Shown here: piece by piece, positions 22,645 through 62,243 of the stretch | Layout: every line of letters starts with the position of its first letter | Numbering within the stretch: position 1 is the first letter of the stretch | Source: Xestospongia bergquistia | Taxonomy: Eukaryota; Porifera; Demospongiae; Haplosclerida; Petrosiidae | NCBI GenBank assembly: GCA_963965975.1 | Contig: OZ014412.1 | Span: 2,668,501-2,732,500, forward strand | Length of the DNA stretch: 64,000 bases | Direction of reading: 5' to 3' | The notes under the pieces: model-generated | Databases searched by the model: none | What the model saw: only the letters and a program-made list of their open reading frames with translations | Told to the model about the DNA's origin: nothing | Program-made: the position numbers and the translations under genes

Positions 22645-24689
22645 CTAGTAATTGTTAGTACAATTGATATCCCAATGATAAGTCCAAACAGGACCACAAG
22701 TACGTATATCATTTGGATTATTAGGATTAAATCTGATCCACATAAGTTTTTTGGCATGGACTTGAAGAGCTTCCATCATTTCAACAGCTTCCATTAACAA
22801 TTTTTGAGGATTACAATCAAGTGTTTCACATGAGAAAGTTTCCTGAAGTTTGCGAAGGAAACCACGATATAGGTGATGAAAAGCTTTTGCTGCATGTAAA
22901 CAATTGGAATTAGGGTAAATCAATGGGTCAGGATTCTCCCTCATTGGCCAGACACCCTGAGGGTCAAAGAGAATGGGATCTCCTGCGTATTTATATTGTG
23001 AATCATTAATTTTAACTAACTTATGTTGACATACTATTTCTTCAAAGCGAAAAAAGTGAGCATAATCGCCATCAAGACTTGAAGTAGGAAGAAGCTTGAA
23101 TCCTTCTCCCTGGATTATGATTTGTGAAATTGATTCGTTAGCCTTTTGAACACTGTCAACTTTTATTAGTTCCATGTCTTTTTCTTTCCAAGGCCATGTG
23201 ACTTGTTTGAACATTGTAGATGAATTAATTATATCATGATGTGTCCTGTACAACAAATCAAGACACTGGATTATTTCTTCATAAAACTCGCCAATAGTAT
23301 TATTGTGAAAATATTTCTTATCTCCTTCCCTTTCCCAAGTTGGTACTTCAATCCCCATAAATACATTATAAACATGCTCTAGTGAAAGTTTTTTAAGATC
23401 TATCTGAAGATTAGGTAACACTCCTCCTGGAAGGCCATGAGCAGGATACCTAGGAACAAAATCAGGACTGTCTATAACTGGTGTCTCACCCATTGAAATT
23501 AACAGATTAGCTGCTTGTGCCATGTGCATCATTTCTTGCACGACGACATGTCTAATATTGTGATATATTTCAACATTGCAACCATCTACAATGGAATACA
23601 TCGCAGTCAAGTAAAGTGGTATAGTGTAGAATTCTAATTGTACAGCCTGTTGTAGTTGCTTTTTCAATTTGTCAACTGAGCAAAACTTTTTCGTCTTCAT
23701 CTTTAAAAAGCCATGCAAAGGTCGAGAGTGATCTTTATCTATATCTGCAATGCTGTCATTAAATATATCACTAAAGTAGGAATTGGTATTTTTTGGGTCA
23801 TCATGAAGACTTATCTCTTTTAACTGACATCGTGGAGGAACAAAAAACTTAAAGGACTTGCTCATACCTTTAGTAATGGATGGATGTTGGCATATTTGAT
23901 CCATAGGCTTTCCTGACTGAGTGTAAGATGTATTATTATACTTAGGATCTTTCAACCAGTTAAGAATCATCTTCTGTTTACTTGGAGAGAGATCTCGTGT
24001 AGCTGGCATGTAATTAGGATGTTCAAAATCAAGCTGCATGGAGTGATTGATTAACTTGATATTCCAAGGTTGAATGACATCAGTGTAGTTACTGAGATCA
24101 ATGATGGACTTCATGACAGGTGCTATATGATTATAGTGAGTGAAAATGACTCCTACATGATCAACCCAAGTATATGGAGAAGTATAGTTTATAGTAGAAT
24201 AAGCTTTTATGGTAATTTGTGAAACTTTCAACGGATTACAATCACTTTCCGATTCATTTAAGATGCAGTAATTAAAGTGGTAAACTTGACCATCAATAGG
24301 TAGGGTGTACTTTGAAGGAAAAGGTGGACATGGAGTTTTTGTATACTTACGAGGGTAAGGAATGGCTTGGGTAACTGAGAAAAGAAAAGTAACTTGTCCT
24401 TTTGGATCAGTTGTCTTGGTGTTTTGATGAGAACAGACACCACCTATTGGAAGAGTAGTGCTATAATTAGCCTGTTTTATTTTTATAGTGACATTCTGAG
24501 CTGAAGCACCATAATGTGTTACATAAAGAGATTGTGATGATGTGTTCCCCTTGTATTCAAATTGATCAACATAGTAATTTACAGGACGTATAAAATATTC
24601 TCTCTCTTTTAGAACTATGATACCACTCTCAGTTTTTATAGATGGAAGGTTTCCACACAATGGTCTGTTTTGATTGCCTTGGACTTTCT
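22645..24689 (-). pseudogene. VioB-like ferritin-domain protein, 5'-truncated second copy
   Basis: The minus-strand frame is open for about 671 codons and is nearly identical to residues about 400-1070 of the complete gene at 34018-38814. It includes QLEFYTIPLYL and the EMMHMAQ helix of the ferritin-like domain. Homology stops at 24689, before the N-terminal PRIHF region; the next bases upstream are a TAG in frame and then antisense TRIM sequence. No ATG exists at the head of the homology, and no signal peptide is joined in frame. The reading frame is otherwise undamaged, implying a recent duplication. An acceptor-like 'cacactgtag' at the junction leaves a small chance of splicing to an unknown exon. 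Confidence 0.8.
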
Positions 24690-25128: not shown

Positions 25129-25170
25129 TTGGAACTGTTTTCTTAGAATTTCCTTTTCTCCTATCAGGTT

Positions 25171-27591
25171 ATGGCTGTGAAATCAGAACACAGCAGTTCT
25201 TCCTCAGCTCTTAAAAAACTAGATGAACTAGCCAAGCAGCTCACCTGTGGTATATGTCATGACCTCTATACCAACCCTAAGACATTACCATGTCTCCATT
25301 CTTTCTGTCAACGATGTCTGAAGGGTCTACCACTTGATCCTCAAGGAGATAACTACTTCATCTCTTGTCCCACTTGTCATCATCATACCCAGTTACCTCA
25401 ACCAACAGGAGCAGCTGACTTTCCTACAGCTTTTCAAGTTAACAACCTCAAAGAGATATACAATCTAATGTCAAAAGTGTCAGGACATCAACAGGTAACC
25501 TGTGATAACTGCGCTACAATTAGAGCTAATGCCACAGGTTACTGTAAAGAATGTACTAAGTTTGTCTGTCAAGAATGTATTGACGTTCACAAACGATTTG
25601 TTTCTGCTGCTGATCATAACATAATAAGTCTTGATAAAGTAGCCACCTCTGGTTTTCAATTGCTCTCCCAGAAGGAGGAGATGAAATGTTCCGGCCATAA
25701 TAAGCCTTTGGAGATCTTTTGTAGAACATGTAAAGAACTCATTTGTTATAACTGTACTGTGCGTGATCATAGAGGTCATGATTATGACTTAGTCTCTGTC
25801 TGCTATCCAAAACATTATCAAACATTGGAAACAAGTCTGAAGTCAGTTAATGACAAAGTCACTGCTGTTACTGATGCCTTAACAGCTCTCACAGGCAGAG
25901 AGAGTGAAATTAGAGAGCAAGGGAAAGTTGCCAAAGACGAGATACATGTCTTGGTGGAAGAAATGATTTATGTCCTTCGTCAATCTGAGAGACAGCTGAC
26001 TAGAGAGGTGGACACAGTCACTGATAGCAAACTAGAAGTCTTACTAGAAAAGAAGAAATTAGCTGAAACAAGATTGAGTCAATTAAAGGATTGCCAGAAT
26101 TATGTGGAACAGAGTCTTGAGATAGACAGTCCTCAAGAAGTAGTGACATCTACAAAACAAATGATGGAACGTATGAATTATGTGGCTCAACAGGTTAAGA
26201 TTGAAGAGTTTAATTTCGAAGAGAAAGCTAATCTTCACTTTAAGAAAAACAGCAACATTGTTGATACACTACATCATATTGGAGATATTGTGTTCTTCTC
26301 ATCTGATGCTCTACAACAGTCTAAAGTCAAGATTGATCATCATCACATTACAACTATAGAGAAGACAGTTTCGTTTCCACTGTCTATTCAATTTTGTGAT
26401 TCCAGTCTTCTTACTGTTCCTCTATCATCACTCAGTTGTAGTGTAGTAAAGACAGAAAAGATGAAGAAGAAAAAAGAGAAGGAAGAGGAAGAAGAAGAGG
26501 AAGAAGAAGAGGAAGAGGAAGAAGAAGAGGAAGAAGAAAAGAGAGAGGAAGAGGAAACCGAAGTAGATGAAGAGGTGGAAACAGAAGATGAATGCGATAT
26601 GGATACACCCATCACAGCTACAGTCACTACTACCACTCATCCTGGAGTGTATACAATACATTGTAGTCCTATAACTCGTGCCTGCTATGAAGTTAATGTC
26701 CAAGTCAATGATGTCCTAGTTGATGTTACCTCACTAACAATTCCTTTTAATCCTTACCTTGATAACATTACTCCAGTACATATAATATATGAATTTGTTG
26801 AACCCTTCGGTGTCGCTGTGACTGATGATGGACATGTTGTGTTAAGTGAATGGAATGGTAATTGTGTCACAGTACTGGATAGAGATGGAAAGAGACTAAA
26901 GACGTTTGGTCAGACGAGTGAAGAAAGCAGAAATATCAAGTTCTCCTATCCTCGTGGTGTAGCCATTACTCCAGACAACCTCATTCTCATTGTTGATGAT
27001 CACAAGATCCAGAAAATATCTATGGATGGGAAATGTCTTGCATTGATTGGTAGACAAGGTAGTGGCCAGTTGGAATTTTCTTCTCCTTCTGGTATTACCA
27101 TTTCTCCAGTAACTGGAAAAATTTATATTGCAGATGAAATTAACCATCGTATACAAGTTTTAAATCCTGATCTAACTTTCTCCCATATGTTTGGTACCAA
27201 AGGATCAGATGAGGGAAAATTTGTTCATCCAATAGACATTGCTATTGATAAACGAGGGTTAGTGTATGTGGCTGACACTTACAATCATCGTATCCAGATA
27301 TTCACTCCTGAGGGACAGTTTTTGTCTCAGTTTGGTACCAAGGGGCCTGGTCCAGGACAACTTAGTCAACCATCGGGGATTGTAATAGATGATAATAATC
27401 TAATATATGTTGCAGAAGTTGGTGATAATAATCGTATCTCTATCTTCACTAGCGATGGTCGGTTCGTACGTTCTTTTGGAGGATTTGGTAACCACAACAA
27501 TCAGTTTAATTGTCCATGTGGACTAACAATTGATAAAGAAGGATATTTATATGTTTGTGATGGTTTAAATAATAGACTAGTAGTGTATTGA
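25171..27591 (+). CDS. TRIM-NHL protein, copy 7, with long poly-Glu insert
   Basis: 806 residues, start MAVKSEHSSSSSALKKLDEL. The RING is present (CGIC, CLHSFCQRC, CPTC), as are B-box 1 with a three-residue insertion (CDNCATIRANATGYCKEC), B-box 2, and the coiled coil. In the filamin repeat, after SLSCSVV, about 50 residues of Lys/Glu with an uninterrupted Glu run near 20 replace the usual P-V-D/G-T-A loop, then TPITATVTTTTHPGVYTIHC resumes. Six NHL blades follow (EWNGNCVTVL, DEINHRIQVL, AEVGDNNRIS). It is the longest member and first of the three-copy acidic subfamily. All ligands are intact, so it is probably functional. Confidence 0.94.
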   Translation: MAVKSEHSSSSSALKKLDELAKQLTCGICHDLYTNPKTLPCLHSFCQRCLKGLPLDPQGDNYFISCPTCHHHTQLPQPTGAADFPTAFQVNNLKEIYNLMSKVSGHQQVTCDNCATIRANATGYCKECTKFVCQECIDVHKRFVSAADHNIISLDKVATSGFQLLSQKEEMKCSGHNKPLEIFCRTCKELICYNCTVRDHRGHDYDLVSVCYPKHYQTLETSLKSVNDKVTAVTDALTALTGRESEIREQGKVAKDEIHVLVEEMIYVLRQSERQLTREVDTVTDSKLEVLLEKKKLAETRLSQLKDCQNYVEQSLEIDSPQEVVTSTKQMMERMNYVAQQVKIEEFNFEEKANLHFKKNSNIVDTLHHIGDIVFFSSDALQQSKVKIDHHHITTIEKTVSFPLSIQFCDSSLLTVPLSSLSCSVVKTEKMKKKKEKEEEEEEEEEEEEEEEEEEEKREEEETEVDEEVETEDECDMDTPITATVTTTTHPGVYTIHCSPITRACYEVNVQVNDVLVDVTSLTIPFNPYLDNITPVHIIYEFVEPFGVAVTDDGHVVLSEWNGNCVTVLDRDGKRLKTFGQTSEESRNIKFSYPRGVAITPDNLILIVDDHKIQKISMDGKCLALIGRQGSGQLEFSSPSGITISPVTGKIYIADEINHRIQVLNPDLTFSHMFGTKGSDEGKFVHPIDIAIDKRGLVYVADTYNHRIQIFTPEGQFLSQFGTKGPGPGQLSQPSGIVIDDNNLIYVAEVGDNNRISIFTSDGRFVRSFGGFGNHNNQFNCPCGLTIDKEGYLYVCDGLNNRLVVY
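26456..26600. repeat. Purine-only GAA/GAG repeat inside TRIM copy 7
   Basis: A nearly pure purine strand of gaa/gag codons; the tract is shorter at 30250-30378 and shorter still at 42311-42430. Length variation among paralogs indicates triplet slippage that is tolerated because it stays in frame. Such homopurine mirror tracts can form triplex DNA (known in general, not shown here). Confidence 0.85.
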
Positions 27592-28948: not shown

Positions 28949-28978
28949 TCTTAGAATTTCCTTTTTCTCCATCAAGTT

Positions 28979-31366
28979 ATGGCAGTGAAATCAGAACACA
29001 GCAGTTCTTCCTCAGCTCTTAAGAAACTAGATGAGGTGGCCAAGCAGCTCACATGTACTAAATGTCTTGACCTCTATACCAACCCTAAGACCTTACCATG
29101 TCTCCATTCTTTCTGTCAACAATGTCTGGAGGGTCTACCACTGGATCACCAAGGAGATAACTGCTTTATTTCTTGTCCCACTTGTCATCATTATATACAG
29201 TTACCTCAATCCACAGGAGCAGCTGACTTTCCAACAGCTTTCCAAATCAACCATCTCAAAGAGATATACAATCTAATGACAAAAGTGTCAGGACATCAAC
29301 AGGTAACCTGTAATAACTGTACTAAAACTAATGCTGCAGGTTACTGTAAAGAATGTACTAAGTTTGTCTGTCAAGAATGTATCGATGTTCACAAACGATT
29401 TGTTCCTATTGCTGATCATAAGATAACAAGTCTTGACGAGGTAGCAACCTGTGCTATTCAATTACTCATCAACAAGCAAGACATAAAATGTTGCACTCAT
29501 AACGAGCCTTTAAAAATATTTTGTGGAACATGTGAAGAACTTATTTGTCACGACTGTACTTTACGTATTCATAGAGGCCATGATTGTGACTCAGTCACTG
29601 ACTGCTATCCTAAGAATTGCCGAATCTTAGAAACGAGTCTAAAGACAGTTAATGACAAGGTTACTGCTGTTACTGATGCCTTAACTGCTCTCACTGACAG
29701 AGAAAGTGAAATCAGAGAGCAAGGAAAAGTTGTCAAAGATGAGATACATGTCATGGTAGAAGAAATGATTTATGTCCTTCGTCAATCCGAGAGACAGCTA
29801 ACTAAAGAGGTGGACACAGTCACTGAAAGCAAACTAGAAGTCTTGCTAGAAAAGAAGAAATTGGCTGGAACAAGATTAAGTCAATTAAAGGATTGCCAGA
29901 ATTATGTGGAACAAAGTCTTGAGACAGGCAGTTCTCAAGAAGTAGTGACATCTACAAAACGAATGATGGAACATATGAATTATTTGACTCAACAGGTTAT
30001 GATTGAAGAGTTTAATTCTGAAGAGAAAGCTAATCTCCACTTTAAGAAAGACAGCAACATTGTTGATACACTACATCATATTGGAGATATTGTGTTCTTC
30101 TCATCTGATGTTCTACAACAGTCTAAAGTCAAGATTGATCGTCATCACATTACAACTATAGAGAAAACAGTTTCATTTCCACTGTCTATTCAATTTTGTG
30201 ATTCCAGTCTTCTGACTGTTCCTCTATCATCACTCAGTTGTAGTGTAGTAAAGAAGGAAAAGATGAAGGAGAAAGAAGAGAAAGAAGAGGAAGAAGAAAA
30301 AAAGAACGAGGACGAGGAAGAAGAGAAGGAAAAGGAAGAGGAAACTGAAGTGGATAAAGAGGAAGAAACAGAAGATGATACACCCATAACAGCTACAGTC
30401 ACTACTACCACCCATCCTGGAGTGTATACAATACATTGTAGTCCTGTAATTTGTGCCTGCTATGAAGTTAATGTCCAAGTTAATGATGTCCAAGTTGATG
30501 TGACCTCACTAACAATTCCTTTTAATCCTTACCTTGATAACATCTCTCCTGTACATATAATATACGAACTTGTTGAACCTTGGGGTGTTGCTGTGACTGA
30601 TGATGGACATATTGTGTTAAGTGAATGGAATGGTAACTGTATCACAGTACTGGATAGAGATGGAAAGAGACTGAAATCGTTTGGTCAAATGAGTGAAGAA
30701 AGCAGAAATATCAAGTTCTCTTATCCTCGTGGTGTAACCATTACCCCAGACAACTTCATTCTCGTTGCTGATGATCACAAGATCCAGAAGATATCTATGG
30801 ATGGGACATGTATTGCATTGATTGGTAGACAAGGTAGTGGCCAGTTGGAATTTTCTTCTCCTTCCAGTATTACAATTTCTCCAATAACTGGAAAACTTTA
30901 TATTGCAGATGAAAATAACCATCGTATACAAGTCTTAAATCCTGATCTAACTTTCTCCCGTATGTTTGGTACCAAAGGATCAGGTGAGGGAAAATTTGTT
31001 CGTCCAGTGGACATTGCTATTGATAGACGAGGATTAGTGTATGTGGCTGATACTTACAATCATCGTATCCAGATATTCACTCCTGAGGGACAGTTTTTGT
31101 CTCAGTTTGGTACCAAGGGGTCTGGTCTAGGACAACTTAGTCAACCATCTGGGATTGTAATAGATGATAACAATCTAATATATGTTGCAGAAGTTGGTGA
31201 TAATAATCGTATCTCTATCTTCACTAGCGATGGTCGGTTCGTACGTTCTTTTGGAGGATTTGGTAACCACAACAATCAGTTTAATTGTCCATGTGGACTA
31301 GCAATTGATCAAAAAGGACATTTATATGTTTGTGATGGTTTAAATAATAGACTAGTAGTGTATTGA
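28979..31366 (+). CDS. TRIM-NHL protein, copy 8, with Glu/Lys insert
   Basis: 795 residues, start MAVKSEHSSSSSALKKLDEV. The RING reads CTKCLDLY..CLHSFCQQC..CPTC, with all eight ligands and a CTKC knuckle in place of CAIC. B-box 1 is CNNCTKTNAAGYCKEC and B-box 2 is CCTHNEPLKIFCGTC. The filamin repeat carries an acidic insert (KKEKMKEKEEKEEEEEKKNE..., about 44 residues) at the same site as copy 7. Six blades end in DGLNNRLVVY. It is followed by a 3' block almost identical to that of copy 7 and preceded by a 5' block almost identical to that of copy 9. Confidence 0.95.
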   Translation: MAVKSEHSSSSSALKKLDEVAKQLTCTKCLDLYTNPKTLPCLHSFCQQCLEGLPLDHQGDNCFISCPTCHHYIQLPQSTGAADFPTAFQINHLKEIYNLMTKVSGHQQVTCNNCTKTNAAGYCKECTKFVCQECIDVHKRFVPIADHKITSLDEVATCAIQLLINKQDIKCCTHNEPLKIFCGTCEELICHDCTLRIHRGHDCDSVTDCYPKNCRILETSLKTVNDKVTAVTDALTALTDRESEIREQGKVVKDEIHVMVEEMIYVLRQSERQLTKEVDTVTESKLEVLLEKKKLAGTRLSQLKDCQNYVEQSLETGSSQEVVTSTKRMMEHMNYLTQQVMIEEFNSEEKANLHFKKDSNIVDTLHHIGDIVFFSSDVLQQSKVKIDRHHITTIEKTVSFPLSIQFCDSSLLTVPLSSLSCSVVKKEKMKEKEEKEEEEEKKNEDEEEEKEKEEETEVDKEEETEDDTPITATVTTTTHPGVYTIHCSPVICACYEVNVQVNDVQVDVTSLTIPFNPYLDNISPVHIIYELVEPWGVAVTDDGHIVLSEWNGNCITVLDRDGKRLKSFGQMSEESRNIKFSYPRGVTITPDNFILVADDHKIQKISMDGTCIALIGRQGSGQLEFSSPSSITISPITGKLYIADENNHRIQVLNPDLTFSRMFGTKGSGEGKFVRPVDIAIDRRGLVYVADTYNHRIQIFTPEGQFLSQFGTKGSGLGQLSQPSGIVIDDNNLIYVAEVGDNNRISIFTSDGRFVRSFGGFGNHNNQFNCPCGLAIDQKGHLYVCDGLNNRLVVY

Positions 31367-34017: not shown

Positions 34018-37000
34018 CTAGTAATTGTTAGTACAATTGATATCCCAATGATAAGTCCAAACAGGACCACAAGTACGTATATCATTTGGATTATTAGGAT
34101 TAAATTTGATCCACATAAGTTTTTTGGCATGGACTTGAAGAGCTTCCATCATTTCAATAGCTTCCATTAACAATTTTTGAGGATTACAATCAAGTGTTTC
34201 ACACGAGAAAGTTTCCTGAAGTTTGCGAAGGAAACCACGATATTGGTGATGAAAAGCTTTTGCTGCATGTAAACAGTTGGAATTAGGGTAAATCAATGGG
34301 TCAGGATTCTCCCTCATTGGCCAGACACCCCGAGGGTCAAAGAGAATGGGATCTCCTACGTATTTATATTGTGAATCATTAATTTTAACTAACTTATGTT
34401 GACATACTATTTCTTCAAAGCGAAAAAAGTGAGCATAATCGCCATCAAGACTTGAAGTAGGAAGAAGCTTGAATCCTTCTCCCTGGATTATGATTTGTGA
34501 AATTGATTCGTTAGCCTTTTGAACACTGTCAACTTTTATTAGTTCCATGTCTTTTTCTTTCCAAGGCCATGTGACTTGTTTGAACATTGTAGATGAATTA
34601 ATTATATCATGATGTGTCCTGTACAACAAATCAAGACACTGGATTATTTCTTCATAAAACTCGCCAATAGTATTATTGTGAAAATATTTCTTATCTCCTT
34701 CCCTTTCCCAAGTTGGTACTTCAATCCCCATAAATACATTATAAACATGCTCTAGTGAAAGTTTTTTAAGATCTATCTGAAGATTAGGTAACACTCCTCC
34801 TGGAAGACCATGAGCAGGATACCTAGGAACAAAGTCAGGACTGTCTATAACTGGTGTCTCACCCATTGAAATTAACAGATTAGCTGCTTGTGCCATGTGC
34901 ATCATTTCTTGCATGACAACATGTCTAATAATGTGATATATTTCAACATTGCAACCATCTACAATGGAATACATCGCAGTCAAGTAAAGTGGTATAGTGT
35001 AGAATTCTAATTGTACAGCCTGTTGTAGTTGCTTTTTCAATTTGTCAACTGAACAAAACTCTTCACTCTTCATTGTCAAAAAGCTATGCAAAGGTCGAGA
35101 GTGACCTTTATCTATATCTGCAATGCTGTCATTAAGTATATCACTAAAGTAGGAATCAGTATTTTTTAGTTCATCATAAAGGTTTAGCACTTCTAACTCA
35201 CATCGTGGGGGAACAAAAAACTTAGAGGACTTGCTCATACCTTTAGTAATGGACGGATGTTGGCATACTTGATCCTTAGGCTTTCCTGGCTGAGTGTCAG
35301 ATTTATGACTATACTTAGGATCTTCCAACCATTCAAGAATCATCTTTTGTTTACTTGGAGAGAGATCTCGTGTAGCTGGCATGTAATTAGGATGTTCAAA
35401 ATCAAGCTGCATGGAGTGATTGATTAACTTGATATTCCAAGGTTGAGTGACATCAGTATAGTTACTGAGGTTAACGATGGACTTCATGACAGGTGCTATA
35501 TGATTATAGTGAGTGAAAATGACTCCTACATGATCAACCCAAGTATATGGAGAAGTATAGTTTACAGTAGAATAAGCTTTTATGGTAATTTGTGAAACTT
35601 TCATCAACGGATTACAATCACTTTCCGATTCATTTAAGATGCAGTAATTAAATTTGTAAACTTGTCCATCAATAGGTAGGGTGTACTTTGAAGGAAAAGG
35701 TGGACATGGAGCTTTTGTATACTTACGAGGGTAAGGAATGGCTTGGGTAACTGAGAAAAGAAAAGTAACTTGTCCTTTTGCATCAGTTGTCTTGGTATTT
35801 TGATAGGGAGCCACACCACCTATTGGATGAGTGGTCTTATGTTTAGCCTGTTTTATTTTTATTTTGACATTCTGAGCTGGAGCACCATAATGTGTTACAT
35901 AAAGAGTTTGTGATGATGTGTTCCCCTTGTATTCAAGTCGATCAACATAGTAATTTAGAGGACGTATAAAATACTCTCTCTCTTTTAGAACTACGATACC
36001 ACTCTCAGTTTTTATAGATGGAAGGTTTCCACACAATGGTCTGTTTTGATTGCCTTGGACTTTCTGAATTACCATAAGTGAATTGGATAGTAGATATTGA
36101 TATTGATTATTTGTTAATGAATATACTGCTAGAGCTCCAGACTCTAACCAATTGTTTGCCATATAAGGAATAGGAGTATTAGGCTCAATTAGTTGGAGAC
36201 AACTCCCACTAGTATCATTATAGCCCAGGTAGAGCTCTCCAATGTCCCGTTGAGTACCATCTGTCATTATGGGAAGAGCATTGCTCAAATCTACCACAAC
36301 TTCTTTATTGCCAGTATCTCTTATTTTAAAAGGAGCATTTGAGGTCCATGGAGCTTGTTCTGAGATATTCAAGCCATAGCAACTATCACTTTGATTAAAG
36401 GTGAGTTGAGGGGGATCATGATCAAGTCCTTCGGAGATCATTAGCCGATCTCCTCCAAAATTGAGTGTTTCTCCATCATTATATACTCCAATAGTTCCCA
36501 CAATATTTCCAAGGGTAAATCGATATGGTACAAGAGGCTCATAGTTACGTGTATAGTAATAGTATGACACACGAATTGATAATTTATTTGATCCACTTTC
36601 ACATTTATCTTTTAGTTGTTGAAGTGATGGAGAATTGTGGAGATCTCCCCATTCTATGTCTGTTAAAATTGTAGTACCCTGCGAGCCAAAAGGAAAACTG
36701 TCTTGATCCCCTTTATAGCACTTCATTCTTTTCCATACATCTTGAGCAATGACTGATGGTGTCCATTTCCCCATGAATGCTACCTGACGCTTTCCTTGGT
36801 CATTATATCCAAAGCTTATCCCAAAGTTCATTCCATAAATGGTAGACTTGACTTGTGCATCTGTATCAAGATCAGTAATTTTAGCAAATGGACGTTCCAG
36901 ATTGGTAACTATGAATGCTGAAAGAATTGGATCATTTTCTTCTGTAATAGTTGTCACAGGACTGTCATAATTGACTTCTGAAACTTTAGTGTTGATGAAT

Positions 37001-38814
37001 TCAAATTCATTTGTTCCATTTGAATTCCAGTCCCTATTGAGATCAGGAGTTACATAATCTGGTATGTAGTTGCATCTATCGTTGTTGCGAGTGTCCACAT
37101 CTGCACGGAAATTCCCAATGAAGTGGATTCGAGGTGTATCAAGATATGATGCAACACTAACACTTGACTGCATCCTGTATGTGTGTAAGAGAAAGAAGAT
37201 AAAACAATATATATATATGGATGTGGTATAAGGTGATTTGCCTTGTGAAGGAGCTGCCTGCATGTGTCTAATTTAAAATCACAATAATAGGAGTGGCTCA
37301 CCACATAGCATGCTCAAGGTTTAGGGTTAAGTTCTGGGGTGGGTCTAGTAACAATATCTAAGTATGGTATGATACTGACACCCATATACATCGGAACATT
37401 TTGACACAAACAGCTAGCACACCATGCATGGCCTTACATCTATTTGGGAGTGAAGTCTTCCAAGATAAGGCAGCTGTTAAATTGCAGTGTTTATGTAAAC
37501 TGCCACTTTTTATTTATTTGTATTTTACTTATTAAGTCTCACTTTCTAATTTACAATAATTAGATGCTAAAGAAAGGAAAAAATGAAAATGTTAGAAGAA
37601 CTCCAGAAGATAAAAAGCAAGGAAAATAAACTATAGAGCACTAGTTATATTGCCGATATGGGTCTCACTGTAAAAAATAATATGTCATTTTAACAATTAC
37701 CGTATAGCGGTTTTTTTTCGAGGGGTAAAATTTTCGTGGTTGAGAAACAAACCACGAAAGCTAATTAGGTCTAATGTGCCACGCCCATTAATGCGTACAT
37801 GTGGTTGCACGCACGTTATCACGTTGTTGATCAGCGAGTCTTAGATTCAGTATGGCCTTATTTCGATACTTCAAGAGGGAAAAGAGCAACCTACCCGATC
37901 CTCATGGCCCTTTAGCACAATCAGTACCATCAACTTCGATTGCAGCTGCCAAGTAGGAAGTTTCAGGACTGCAACTGCAAAAACATCATGAGGGTTGCCA
38001 GTTTCTCTCTGGCACTGAAGTTATTCCCCAAATTTAGCATCCCAGATCCCTTTGTACTGGTGGTAGCCTCGTATCATGGCTTGAATTTCGAAGTACGCCA
38101 TTTGTACACCATGTTATAGGGGGTGTGGTTTAGACTAGATCGCTCGACCAAGAAATTTTTACCACGAACCAACATAATTTTTGACTTCCACGAAAATTTT
38201 GCCCCCGAAAAAAAGCCGCTATACGGTAGTTTGTAATTTACATAGGTAGACTACTATGGAATGTAGAATTTACATAAATTACTCATTGTATACTTTGTTG
38301 GTTTTTAAAGGAACAGTATGCCAACAAGTACGTAGTGAGCAATACACAAGAATTCAACATTCCATAGTAATTAATCCATTTTAGCTACAAATTAGGTGTT
38401 AAATTGACATATTAATTTTTACAGTGAGCTCGTAAAACTTTTTGGCAGCCCTGCAAGGAGAGATACATCCAAGCTAAGGAACATGATTTCCTTATACCGT
38501 ATTATAATACGCGAACATAACACTGCAGTTGCAAAAATTGAAGTACGGTGTGCATTTTCTAAACACTTCGCACTAAGCAACATCTACTAAGAAAGCTGAA
38601 GTTTCACAAACTTCCATTAATTACACCGCATTTATACCTAAATGCTGCATAATTTATAAATATACATGTCAATAGGGGCTTTGACATAAGGTATTTTGTA
38701 TAACTACACGAGTACTATTTATAGTAATTCAATCATAACGATATTTGTGCAAACTTACGCAAAGGAGAAGAAGATGAAACCTATCAGAATAGTCACTTTC
38801 AGTGAAGTAGTCAT
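34018..38814 (-). CDS. Secreted VioB-like ferritin-domain protein, two exons
   Basis: Two exons: 38814-38759 and 37174-34018, joined by a GT-AG intron (donor GC|GTAAGT; acceptor after a pyrimidine tract, ACACATACAG). The splice keeps frame and gives 1,070 residues. Exon 1 encodes MTTSLKVTILIGFIFFSFA, a clear signal peptide. Residues about 30-41 are LDTPRIHFIGNF, the hallmark N-terminus of VioB/RebD/StaD-type proteins, which in bacteria dimerise imino-indolepyruvate in violacein and indolocarbazole synthesis. A ferritin-like domain lies about 730-960, with QLEFYTIPLYL (Glu ligand), QEMMHMAQ (E-x2-H) and GEFYEEI. Many N-x-S/T sites fit secretion. The substrate is unknown: no tryptophan oxidase (VioA) partner is visible here. 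Bacterial ancestry is inferred; the splicing, TATA box and TRIM neighbours make contamination unlikely. Confidence 0.85.
37666..38426. mobile_element. MITE of the CACTGTAAAAA family, interrupted by a second element
   Basis: The left part, 37666-37699 (CACTGTAAAAAATAATATGT...AACAATTA), and the right part, 38227-38426 (ending TTAATTTTTACAGTG), together make one element of the family seen at 56090. It lies inside the intron of the VioB-like gene. Outer flanks are TCT and AGC, so the TA duplication is not evident here. Confidence 0.7.
37700..38226. mobile_element. 527-bp nested MITE with CCGTATAGCGG terminal repeats
   Basis: The left end is CCGTATAGCGGTTTTTTTTC and the right end is its inverse (GAAAAAAAGCCGCTATACGG), with a second inverted stretch ('aaaattttcgtgg' and 'ccacgaaaatttt'). 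TA flanks both ends (37698-37699 and 38227-38228), and removal restores the host MITE. The interior is GC-richer than the region and includes a 34-codon ORF at 37852-37956 (MALFRYFKREKSNLPDPHGP...) that may be captured sequence. No transposase. Confidence 0.85.
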
Positions 38815-38856: not shown

Positions 38857-38864
38857 CTTATATA
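38857..38864 (-). promoter_or_regulatory. TATA box of the VioB-like gene
   Basis: The minus strand reads CCCTATATAAGCAG, with the TATATAAG about 43 bases before the ATG at 38814. This fits a transcription start some 10-20 bases upstream of the ATG. The surrounding 38780-38910 stretch is richer in GC than the flanks. Confidence 0.6.
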
Positions 38865-41007: not shown

Positions 41008-41037
41008 TCTTAGAATTTCCTTTTTCTCCATCAAGTT

Positions 41038-43408
41038 ATGGCAGTGAAATCAGAACACAGCAGTTCTTCCTCAGCTCTTAAGAAACTAGATGAGGTGGCC
41101 AAGCAGCTCACATGTACTAAATGTCTTGACCTCTATACCAACCCTAAGACCTTACCATGTCTCCATTCTTTCTGTCAACAATGTCTGGAGGGTCTACCAC
41201 TGGATCACCAAGGAGATAACTGCTTTATTTCTTGTCCCACTTGTCATCATTGTATACAGTTACTTCAACCCACAGGAGCAGCTGACTTTCCAACAGCTTT
41301 CCAAATCAACCATCTCAAAGAGATATACAATCTAATGACAAAATTGTCAGGACATCAACAGGTAACCTGTGATAACTGTACTACAACTAATGCTGCAGGT
41401 TACTGTAAAGAATGTACTAAGTTTGTCTGTCAAGAATGTATCGATGTTCACAAACGATTTGTTCCTATTGCTGATCATAAGATAACAAGTCTTGACGAGG
41501 TAGCAACCTGTGCTATTCAATTACTCATCAACAAGCAAGACATAAAATGTTGCACTCATAACGAACCTTTAAAAATATTTTGTGGAACATGTGAAGAACT
41601 CATTTGTCACGACTGTACTTTATGTATTCATAGAGGCCATGATTGTGACTCAGTCACTGACTGCTATCCTAACAATTGCCAAATCTTAGAAACGAGTCTA
41701 AAGACAGTTAATGACAAGGTTACTGCTGTTACTGATGCCTTAACTGCTCTCACTGACAGAGAAAGTGAAATCAGAGAGCAAGGAAAAGTTGTCAAAGATG
41801 AGATACATGTCATGGTAGAAGAAATGATTTATGTCCTTCGTCAATCCGAGAGACAGCTAACTAGAGAGGTGGACACAGTCACTGATAGCAAACTAGAAAT
41901 CTTGCTAGAAAAGAAGAAATTGGCTGAAACAAGATTAAGTCAATTAAAGGATTGCCAGAATTATGTGGAACAAAGTCTTGAGACAGGCAGTCCTCAAGAA
42001 GTAGTGACATCTACAAAAAGAATGATGGAACATATGAATTATTTGACTCAACAGGTTATAATTGAAGAGTTTAATTCTGAAGAGAAAGCTAATCTCCACT
42101 TTAAGAAAGACAGCAACATTGTTGATACACTACATCATATTGGAGATATTGTGTTCTTCCCATCCAATGTTCTACAACAGTCTAAAGTCAAGATTGATCA
42201 TCATCACATTACAACTATAGAGAAAACAGTTTCATTTCCACTGTCTATTCAATTTTGTGATTCCAGTCTTCTGACTGTTCCTCTATCATCACTCAGTTGT
42301 AGTGTAATAAAGAAGGAAAAGATGAAGGAGAAAGAAGAGGAAGAAGAAAAAAAGAACGAGGACGAGGAAGAAGAGAAGGAAAAGGAAGAGGAAACTGAAG
42401 TGGATAAAGAGGAAGAAACAGAAGATGATACACCCATAACAGCTACAGTCACTACTACCACCCATCCTGGAGTGTATACAATACATTGTAGTCCTGTAAT
42501 TTGTGCCTGCTATGAAGTTAATGTCCAAGTTAATGATGTCCAAGTTGATATGACCTCACTAACAATTCCTTTTAATCCTTACCTTGATAACATCTCTCCA
42601 GTACATATAATATATGAACTTGTTGAACCTTGGGGTGTTGCTGTGACTGATGATGGACATATTGTGTTAAGTGAATGGAATGGTAACTGTATCACAGTAC
42701 TGGATAGAGAGACTGAAATCGTTTGGTCAAATGAGTGAAGAAAGCAGAAATATCAAGTTCTCTTATCCTCGTGGTGTAACCATTACCCCAGACAACTTCA
42801 TTCTCGTTGCTGATGATCACAAGATCCAGAAGATATCTATGGATGGGACATGTATTGCATTGATTGGTAGACAAGGTAGTGGCCAGTTGGAATTTTCTTC
42901 TCCTTCCAGTATTACGATTTCTCCAATAACTGGAAAACTTTATATTGCAGATGAAAATAACCATCGTATACTAGTCTTAAATCCTGATCTAACTTTCTCC
43001 CATATGTTTGGTACCAAAGGATCAGGTGAGGGAAAATTTGTTCGTCCAGTGGACATTGCTATTGATAGACGAGGATTAGTGTATGTGGCTGATACTTACA
43101 ATCATCGTATCCAGATATTCACTCCTGAGGGACAGTTTTTGTCTCAGTTTGGTACCAAGGGGTCTGGTCTAGGACAACTTAGTCAACCATCTGGGATTGT
43201 AATAGATGATAACAATCTAATGTATCTTGCAGAAGTTGGTGATAATAATCGTATTTCTGTCTTCACTACTGATGGTCGGTTCGTACGTTCTTTTGGAGGA
43301 TTTGGTAGAGGCAACGATTGGTTTAATTGTCCATGTGGACTAGCAATTGATCAAAAAGGACATTTATATGTTTGTGATGGTTTAAATAATAGGCTAGTAG
43401 TGTATTGA
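41038..43408 (+). pseudogene. TRIM-NHL copy 9, frameshifted by an 8-bp deletion
   Basis: The first 566 codons read as an intact RING, B-box, coiled-coil and filamin protein of the acidic subfamily (shorter Glu/Lys insert) up to blade 1. There 'gatagagatggaaagagact' of copy 8 is shortened to 'gatagagagact', losing 8 bp between two AGAG words. The frame then ends at TGA 42736-42738. Blades 2-6 stay open in the other frame to 43408 (starting RLKSFGQMSEESRN). The rest is about 98% identical to copy 8 by eye, so the break is young. The truncated product would keep RING and filamin but lose the propeller; it could act without a recognition domain, or simply be dead. Confidence 0.85.
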
Positions 43409-60539: not shown

Positions 60540-61690
60540 ACTTATGTTAGTCCATGATTATAGTCATTGTTTTGTTTAGCAGTATTAGTAATGTTGTTAC
60601 TTAGTCAGTTATTGTTATTGTCTTTTCCTTTTTGATTTTTAATATCTATTCTAATTTTGATATTGAATAATGTTGACCAAATTTTTGTGATTGTTAAAAA
60701 ACAGTACTGTGCCTACAATATCAATATATGTACTAGTACATATTAGTATTAGAAATGACACACCCACTAGTCTACTTGGATGACTTTCTCGTACTGAGGT
60801 GTAATTTGATGGGGGATAATAGCTGTTAGTGGATTAACAGGAGATGGTACAATACATACAATGTAATAATATGTTATGCTCAAGTAAGATCATTACATCA
60901 CACACACACACACACACACTGTTATTGGTCAACATCATATAGCTCTTCTTATCCTACATATCATTATAAGTACTAGTACAGTACATACCAATATTAGAAT
61001 TGACACACCCACTAGACTACCTGTATGACATAAACAAATTGACAGTATTCTCATATTGAGGTATAACTTGATGAGGGACAGTGTTATTATGTTAATGCAT
61101 TAATAGGAGATCAAAGTGACCCATTTAATGTCACAACATCCCTACTATGTACTCATTTAAAATAATGGTAATAATGATAATATATACATATACACATATA
61201 GGGTATATGGTATGTAATAAAATTATTATTGGTGTAGTATATTTAATTAAGTAGTGAGTATTTTGTCTAACCAATAATAGAAGAGACTGGATTATGTTAC
61301 AGGCTACAAATTGTGGATAACAACTACACTATATTGTGGTTAACACTCCACAATAAGTGTTGTAGTAGATATTATAATTCATTACTGATATATAACAACT
61401 ACTCTACTATACAAGTACACAGCAAATATTAATATAATATAATTAAATTAATAAATAAAATATATAGCACACAAAATATTATGTCCACTTTTAATATAAT
61501 ATATCATAGGAATGACTGGGGGGCACAGTTGGTGAAGCAAAAGGTGTGTAATAATGGTAATTTTTGATAACGTTAGCTACATGGGGTGGTAGCTATAAAT
61601 ATTGGACATGGTCAGTGTAAAATGTTTTTGAACAACAATGTTATAAGTAACTTGATTATAAACGCAATGCAAGATACAGTTACACATTAC
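60540..61690. other. AT-rich intergenic stretch with dispersed repeats
   Basis: No gene seen. 'gacacacccactag' blocks at about 60757 and 61003 are each followed by 'taacaggagat'-type sequence, related to 55850-55975. A (CA)n microsatellite is at 60899-60920. Confidence 0.6.
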
Positions 61691-61738
61691 CAAAATAATT
61701 TCTTCTTCTGTAATTTACATGATGAAACTATTTGCTAG

Positions 61739-62243
61739 TGTGAATCATAGTTGTCCTAGGACATGTAGTAATCCTCACTTATATTGTATCAATGATAATC
61801 TACCAGGTTGTAGTTGTCCAAAAGGTCAAGTTATTGATGAAATAAATAATAGTTGTGTTCACCTTAGAGATTGTCCTAGTAAGAGAAGAGTACAGTACAT
61901 TATAGCATTTATTATTTATGTATTAGAACCTGATCCTTGTAAACTACCTCCTAAACAAGGACCATGTACTGGTAACATCAAACGATACTATTTTAATTCA
62001 ACTAGTGGATTATGTTTACCATTTATATAAGGTGGATGTTTTGGTAATGAGAATAACTTCTTTTCACAGTATCTCTGTGAACAACAATGTAGTGGTCAGT
62101 TAATATTATATGAAGGAAGATGTATTATTGATTTCTTTAATCAGATTGTTATCCAGTATGTAGTTATGAATTTTGTTCAATACATGGACACAGAATTGCT
62201 ATTTTGTATAATGTTACATAATAAGAACAAGACAATTAACTAA
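61739..62243 (+). pseudogene. TIL-Kunitz protease-inhibitor gene with one nonsense codon
   Basis: After the acceptor-like 'actatttgctag', the frame reads NHSCPRTCSNPHLYCINDN then PGCSCPKGQVIDEINNSCVH, a trypsin-inhibitor-like (TIL) domain. A 48-bp GT-AG intron (61879-61926) keeps phase. A Kunitz domain follows: PDPCKLPPKQGPCTG, RYYFNSTSGLCLPFI, then TAA at 62028-62030 where the paralog at 59934 has TAT (Tyr), then GGCFGNENNFFSQYLCEQQC in the same frame. Removing this one stop gives a complete Kunitz fold and a tail to 62243. The upstream signal-peptide exon was not found. It is either a young pseudogene or a polymorphic null. 62244-62430 is CA/TATA-rich simple sequence. Confidence 0.75.

Follow-up and report, generated by a model that had tools for sequence, protein, structure and literature searches.

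A nuclear gene family for a putatively secreted ferritin-like protein, distantly related to VioB and possibly of bacterial origin, in the sponge Xestospongia bergquistia

Introduction

The enzymes VioB, StaD and RebD act on indole-pyruvate imine, which they dimerize (excerpts of PMC10784701 and PMC10847564). The ferritin-like family PF12902 is also represented by Caulobacter CC_0557 (PDB 3hl1), a 317-residue chain devoid of an N-terminal part, and by a gene that adjoins fungal lodA according to part of PMC4417212. In the sponge Amphimedon queenslandica, genes derived from prokaryotes possess canonical introns and are clustered in the genome (excerpts of PMC4784904), as are the animal copies described here. 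The present study concerns gene A, which lies on the minus strand of a 64,000-nucleotide stretch of the sponge Xestospongia bergquistia (GCA_963965975.1, contig OZ014412.1, positions 2,668,501 to 2,732,500), hereafter the window, corresponding to C2:2668501-2732500 in a source genome of 146 Mb and 21 contigs. An initial annotation proposed that a VioB-like enzyme of bacterial type had become a secreted and spliced gene at this site. The results presented here reveal that gene A is one of five intact copies whose products are homologous along both halves to a bacterial family of adjoining or fused genes. There is about an even chance that it is an old bacterial gene that now specifies a secreted, disulphide-rich, ferritin-like oxidase, probably of the non-haem diiron type, acting on a small metabolite. 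No description of the family in animals was recognized among the matches listed in literature searches: the main text of Conaco 2016 (PMC4784904; supplement not covered) does not contain 'ferritin', 'violacein' or 'VioB', and a 2026 compendium of animal transfers (supplement not covered) does not contain 'ferritin' or 'violacein'.

Results

Gene A is a predicted spliced gene for a ferritin-like protein

The open reading frame of gene A (34018..37272) spans 1084 residues from stop to stop with no internal stop, and is preceded by a separate first exon. This exon starts with ATG at 38814 and terminates at the donor GTAAGT, with the acceptor CATACAG/G placed before exon 2. Joining 38814..38759 to 37174..34018 yields a coding sequence of 3,213 nt that specifies 1,070 residues and ends in a single terminal stop. 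The reading frame, the signal-like exon, the 3,213-nt coding sequence and the phase-2 intron with its acceptor at 37174, as given in the initial annotation, were all present at exact coordinates, and its view of a bacterial-type protein with eukaryotic gene structure and a signal-like exon was supported. The features are as follows, with residues numbered from the start of exon 2.

38857..38864, minus strand: putative TATA-like box TATATAAG, as read from the sequence, ~43 nt 5' of the start codon
38759..38814, minus strand: exon 1 (56 nt), start codon and signal-peptide-like sequence with a phase-2 end; each of the four intact copies located on contig C9 has a counterpart
37175..38758, minus strand: intron, 1,584 nt
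37664..38428, strand not assigned: repeat or repeats with terminal inverted repeats within the intron; inner element 37690-38236
34018..37174, minus strand: exon 2, remaining coding sequence including the stop codon
36478..37137, minus strand: N-terminal beta-barrel domain, weakly dirigent-like, residues 13-232
35980..36360, minus strand: beta-sandwich region, weakly FnIII-like, residues 272-398
35569..35976, minus strand: Ig/macroglobulin-like beta-sandwich, weak match, residues 400-535
34405..35028, minus strand: PF12902 ferritin-like domain; candidate ligands E723, E756, H759, E818, E899 and H915

The PF12902 profile, with which the initial annotation had suggested that the assignment be checked, matched gene A with an E value of 6.4e-51 and 173.8 bits against a gathering score of 22.3, and the match covered profile positions 1-220 of 221. 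A helical ferritin-like fold was found for this domain. The six candidate metal ligands, of which E899 and H915 are situated at the C-terminal end of the domain, are retained in all five animal copies and in each of the 31 bacterial rows used for the conservation and cysteine-column counts. The N-terminal part matched no curated family above cut-off in Pfam or NCBIfam, and residues 1-398 gave no Foldseek match at an E value of 0.001. Residues 13-232 showed a weak fold match to the dirigent and allene-oxide-cyclase-like barrel, which suggests that the modeled N-terminal barrel may be dirigent-like. The structure alignment comprised 88 rows and the query, with the paralogs on contig C9 left out.

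Five intact copies share a signal-like first exon

The genome yielded seven PF12902 matches: gene A and its truncated duplicate A', the intact C9 copies B1, B2, C1 and C2, and one broken fragment. A', the four C9 copies and the intronic repeat did not feature in the initial annotation.

C9:1060882-1064040, plus strand: B1, intact copy
C9:1065672-1068824, plus strand: B2, intact copy
C9:1069037-1072282, minus strand: C1, intact copy
C9:1074236-1077475, minus strand: C2, intact copy
C9:1072954-1074050, plus strand: broken fragments of a further ferritin-like half (L009, L010), between C1 and C2, near 1073090
22645..24687 of the window, minus strand: A', 5'-truncated duplicate of gene A, open frame of 680 residues without the N-terminal domain

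A' is 95.8% identical to gene A in DNA over 2,724 nt and 92% identical in protein from residue 368. The frames of the intact copies are open at 44-73% identity to gene A. Nei-Gojobori ratios of nonsynonymous to synonymous change (dN/dS) were 0.63 for B1-B2, 0.42 for C1-C2, 0.68 for A-A', 0.45 for A-B1 and 0.36 for A-B2; the value for B1-C1 was 0.19 with a dS of 2.7, and A-C1 was saturated. The open frames at this level of identity are consistent with long-term constraint, with looser change in recent time.

All five intact copies possess an upstream exon with an ATG, a hydrophobic segment and a phase-2 donor; the in-frame junction is located a short distance 5' of the conserved SYLD(T/V)PR(I/L)HF. 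The signal peptide was judged by hydrophobicity and layout. A strict scan of 211,002 bases of strand sequence for an ATG, a hydrophobic 10-mer and a phase-2 GTRAGT donor with no intervening stop returned 10 hits. Six are located at the five intact genes, including two nested hits at C2, and four at two other places. Each hit at an intact paralog is upstream and on the correct strand. The background probability of a hit is ~0.037 in a stretch of 1,600 bases and 0.014 in one of 600, and the signal-like exons of the five copies exceed chance expectation. As read from the alignments, exon 1 of B1 differs from that of B2 at two sites, both synonymous, and four of the five codons changed between C1 and C2 are synonymous. 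The homologous protein starts at the same MSYL in four bacterial pairs, and exon 1 therefore would contribute mainly the signal sequence. The intron of gene A is lengthened by a dispersed repeat, 527 bases of which gave 55 genome matches (self included) on many contigs, and it measures 1584 nt compared to 537, 527, 506 and 513 nt in B1, B2, C1 and C2, respectively. The unspliced frame of gene A contains an in-frame ATG at 37263 before a hydrophobic stretch.

The closest relatives found are bacterial gene pairs and fusions

Relatives were sought in prokaryotic collections in addition to the source genome, and the scan of genome contigs yielded 80 of 138 relatives. A tblastn search of plasmids returned eight records with 87-91% query coverage and 27.7-29.8% identity. 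Each match falls on two adjoining genes, one annotated as 'hypothetical protein' and the other as 'ferritin-like protein'. The 80 loci contain 84 N-terminal genes: in 64 cases a ferritin-like gene follows downstream as a gene of its own, in 17 the two are fused, and three N-terminal genes have no ferritin-like gene downstream. Homology between the animal protein and the bacterial family covers both halves. Judged by sequence, the closest relatives in these collections are an unnamed and uncharacterized family encoded by two genes or one fused gene. In Azospirillum sp. B510, Gloeothece PCC 7822, Mycetohabitans and Aureibacter the proteins display full-length homology, the SYL..PR..F start and the same candidate ligands as the animal copies. 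In contrast, the bacterial forms have no signal exon, lack nearly all of 13 cysteines that are invariant in the animal proteins, and mostly are two genes.

Gene order varies among the bacterial loci. L021, L035, L038 and L067 each contain two tandem pairs of N-terminal and ferritin-like genes, divergent second copies are present at L077:13204-16498 and L039:12497-14287, and in L077 the order is reversed with the ferritin-like gene 5' of the N-terminal gene.

The animal protein is a distant cousin of VioB

The VioB equivalog model TIGR04492 scored 12.5 bits with gene A and 17.1 and 14.6 bits with two paralogs against a cut-off of 1250. A profile-profile comparison with VioB gave a probability of 99.86 with 20% identity over 786 columns. 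The initial identification as VioB-like therefore stands at the level of superfamily homology, but not for strict VioB/RebD/StaD identity. VioB, RebD and StaD resemble the animal protein in domain order and shared candidate ligands, the superfamily profile match relating to VioB sequences. VioB differs from it in model score, in its distant position in the tree and in the gene neighborhood in bacteria. In the tree, two VioB rows are set apart from all 36 other rows with support of 100, and the distance between them and the rest comprises two branches, each of 2.53 changes per column. True VioB and the N-terminal/ferritin-like family were present as separate genes in two of 11 bacterial genomes searched, and these two genomes supplied the VioB rows of the tree. 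Membership of the VioB family is rejected on the grounds of score, tree and this co-occurrence, and the animal protein, as far as its sequence tells, is a distant cousin of VioB and not a version of it.

The animal copies form a single clade

The animal copies formed one clade with support of 100 in every tree. The trees omit the three N-terminal genes that have no ferritin-like gene downstream, two of which are at contig ends and the third of which (L025) has a ferritin-like gene upstream. The trees of 38 and 36 rows were built after manual removal of three pair rows and filtering by identity, which retained 14 of 65 pair rows. A FastTree analysis of 90 rows grouped the animal copies with all 17 fused rows (support 99). 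In the 36-row tree the split uniting animal and fused rows had support of 91/68, and that uniting the fused rows alone 87/89. No settled order emerged among animal, fused and pair rows with VioB in the tree. A clade of the animal copies with seven actinobacterial and Chloroflexi fused rows was missing from the best tree, and was not rejected by the approximately unbiased test (p 0.146). Thus, the phylogeny proposed in the initial annotation, when populated with bacterial homologs and animal copies, recovered a monophyletic animal clade but nested it in no bacterial phylum. The animal lineage branches near the split between fused and paired forms, and no donor phylum can be named. We infer both the transfer and its direction.

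The gene is adapted to the host genome and the secretory path

Genes next to the copies are of animal type: a TRIM-NHL array is located in the window, and P450, CARD, BTB and Ras-family genes accompany the C9 cluster. GC content at third codon positions is 0.27-0.28 in the animal copies compared to 0.27-0.29 in six neighboring TRIM genes. Codon usage of the animal copies correlates with that of the TRIM neighbors at 0.88-0.89, whereas four bacterial relatives reach values between -0.26 and 0.38. The animal proteins contain 19-23 cysteines each, compared to means of 5.5 in 68 pair rows and 4.8 in 17 fused rows. The five animal copies share 13 invariant cysteines, 12 of which were found in none of the 31 bacterial rows and one in a single row. 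Glycosylation sequons number 12.8 in the animal proteins versus 3.7 in paired and 3.1 in fused forms, with 8.8 expected from animal composition. The gain in cysteines and sequons fits the selection that would be expected from passage through the secretory path. Overall, host-like codon usage, the host repeat in the intron, duplicates among animal-type genes, and the gained cysteines and sequons mark the gene as nuclear and support the earlier proposal of domestication.

Bacterial relatives often adjoin ebo genes

At least three ebo metabolite-export genes were present in the fetched flank of 25 of the 80 bacterial loci, and at least one in 27. In the 25 ebo-linked loci the nearest ebo gene was a median of 161 nt away and on the same strand in 19. 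Twenty control stretches, each 17.7 kb long and drawn from ten of these genomes, contained no ebo genes; reading frames were taken from stop to stop in the controls and from start to stop in the test loci, many of which were cut by contig ends. Five of 17 fused loci had at least two ebo genes. Other neighbors among the 80 loci included LodA homologs in five, tryptophan-halogenase-like flavoproteins in seven, and a family with a glyoxalase-like scanned member in 11. The word 'ferritin' does not occur in the main text of PMC5133447. At L071:3609-7046 a LodA-type oxidase is fused to a haem-oxygenase-like domain (PF14518) and adjoins a fused family copy.

Discussion

The favored interpretation is that an ancestor of the animal lineage acquired a bacterial gene for a protein in which the N-terminal barrel and PF12902 domain were, or later became, one polypeptide. 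In the animal, the gene would have acquired the signal-peptide exon with its phase-2 intron, adopted host codon usage and come to encode at least 12 additional conserved cysteines; duplication would have produced five intact copies. The helical metal site may activate O2 or H2O2 and thereby oxidize a small, perhaps amino-acid-derived, substrate. This chemistry would be akin to that of VioB, RebD and StaD on indole-pyruvate imine, with a different substrate compound, and the product might act extracellularly, most simply in defense or surface chemistry. We infer the metal and cofactor, the substrate and the role. A more specific version, which we regard as doubtful, pairs the diiron oxidase with a dirigent-like barrel that steers coupling: the ferritin-like site would oxidize an amino-acid-derived substrate and the barrel would direct its coupling or cyclization. 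The bacterial pair then would be a core enzyme of many ebo-exported products and LodA-linked clusters, VioB would be a specialized branch, and the animal, having added a signal peptide and disulphides, would export the enzyme and perform the chemistry extracellularly.

Several observations weigh against the favored interpretation. No ebo gene was present at an E value of 1e-10 in 53 of the 80 bacterial loci, and ten scanned non-ebo neighbors of fused genes were mixed. EboA and EboE protein queries found no match in the animal genome, in a search with no positive control in which other ebo genes were not sought, and LodA_N found none there and a match in one of 14 control genomes. A tree of the N-terminal part alone unites the fused rows to the exclusion of the animal copies (97/99), a tree of the C-terminal part alone unites the pairs to the exclusion of the animal copies (95/97), and the animal clade is a long branch near the split between fused and paired forms. 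The dN/dS ratios between recent copies are high (0.42-0.68), and VioB, RebD and StaD are described as haem-containing in PMC10847564.

The placement of the animal clade outside every bacterial phylum in any tree speaks for a family that is old in eukaryotes, or that entered by way of another eukaryote, for instance a fungus, with loss in other lineages and no direct transfer from bacteria to this animal lineage. Fungal PF12902 genes do exist (part of PMC4417212). Among the prokaryotic relatives sampled, nothing decisive counts against this account, which we hold to be unlikely but the most serious of the alternatives. A secreted protein that binds iron or removes peroxide, such as an antimicrobial iron scavenger, and has no part in small-molecule biosynthesis is improbable: the ferritin-like fold and conserved ligands by themselves cannot separate an oxidase from an iron or peroxide sink, but metabolite chemistry is suggested by the size and conservation of the N-terminal part and by the ebo and LodA genes near the bacterial relatives. 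It is more improbable still that transcription starts inside the reading frame, or that an unspliced message is translated from ATG 37263, to give a cytoplasmic enzyme. That ATG is in frame ahead of the hydrophobic stretch in unspliced gene A, and C1 and C2 have a further in-frame ATG 3' of the acceptor. However, the signal-like exon 1 is found in all five copies with mostly synonymous change within pairs, cysteines and sequons have been gained, the unspliced stretch of gene A is a pyrimidine-rich intron end, and the B1 and B2 frames have no ATG there.

A true enzyme of the VioB/RebD/StaD type, with which the animal would make a bisindole by dimerizing indole-pyruvate imine, would account for the shared overall arrangement, with the ferritin-like domain following the N-terminal part, the significant profile match and the common candidate ligands. 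This is very unlikely in view of the scores of 12.5-17.1 bits against 1250, the intervening branches of 2.53 + 2.53, and the separate presence of both families in two bacterial genomes. Bacterial contamination of the assembly is hardly credible. The relatives found are all bacterial, only prokaryotic collections having been searched, but contamination is contradicted by contigs of 16.1 and 7.5 Mb, animal-type flanking genes, introns, the host repeat within an intron and host codon usage.

If the proposal of an acquired, exported oxidase is correct, the gene family encodes an animal relative of a bacterial natural-product oxidase, and part of the chemistry commonly credited to symbionts could belong to the animal. 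The findings also point to a widespread uncharacterized bacterial enzyme pair, often next to an ebo export cluster, that is accessible to testing in culturable bacteria such as Azospirillum and Flavobacterium.

Other genes in the window

Long single-frame TRIM-type genes with RING, B-box and NHL repeats surround gene A in a tandem array on both strands (3077-53106); two of their frames were scanned with Pfam and the remainder assigned by similarity. Frames that include 25147-27591, 28955-31366 and 41014-42738 contain a glutamate-rich acidic insert of variable length between the B-box/coiled-coil and the NHL repeats. The copy at 41014-43408 is broken into two overlapping frames of 574 and 245 residues in a frameshift-like manner. 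A frame at 61662-62030 combines a TIL domain with part of a Kunitz protease-inhibitor domain.

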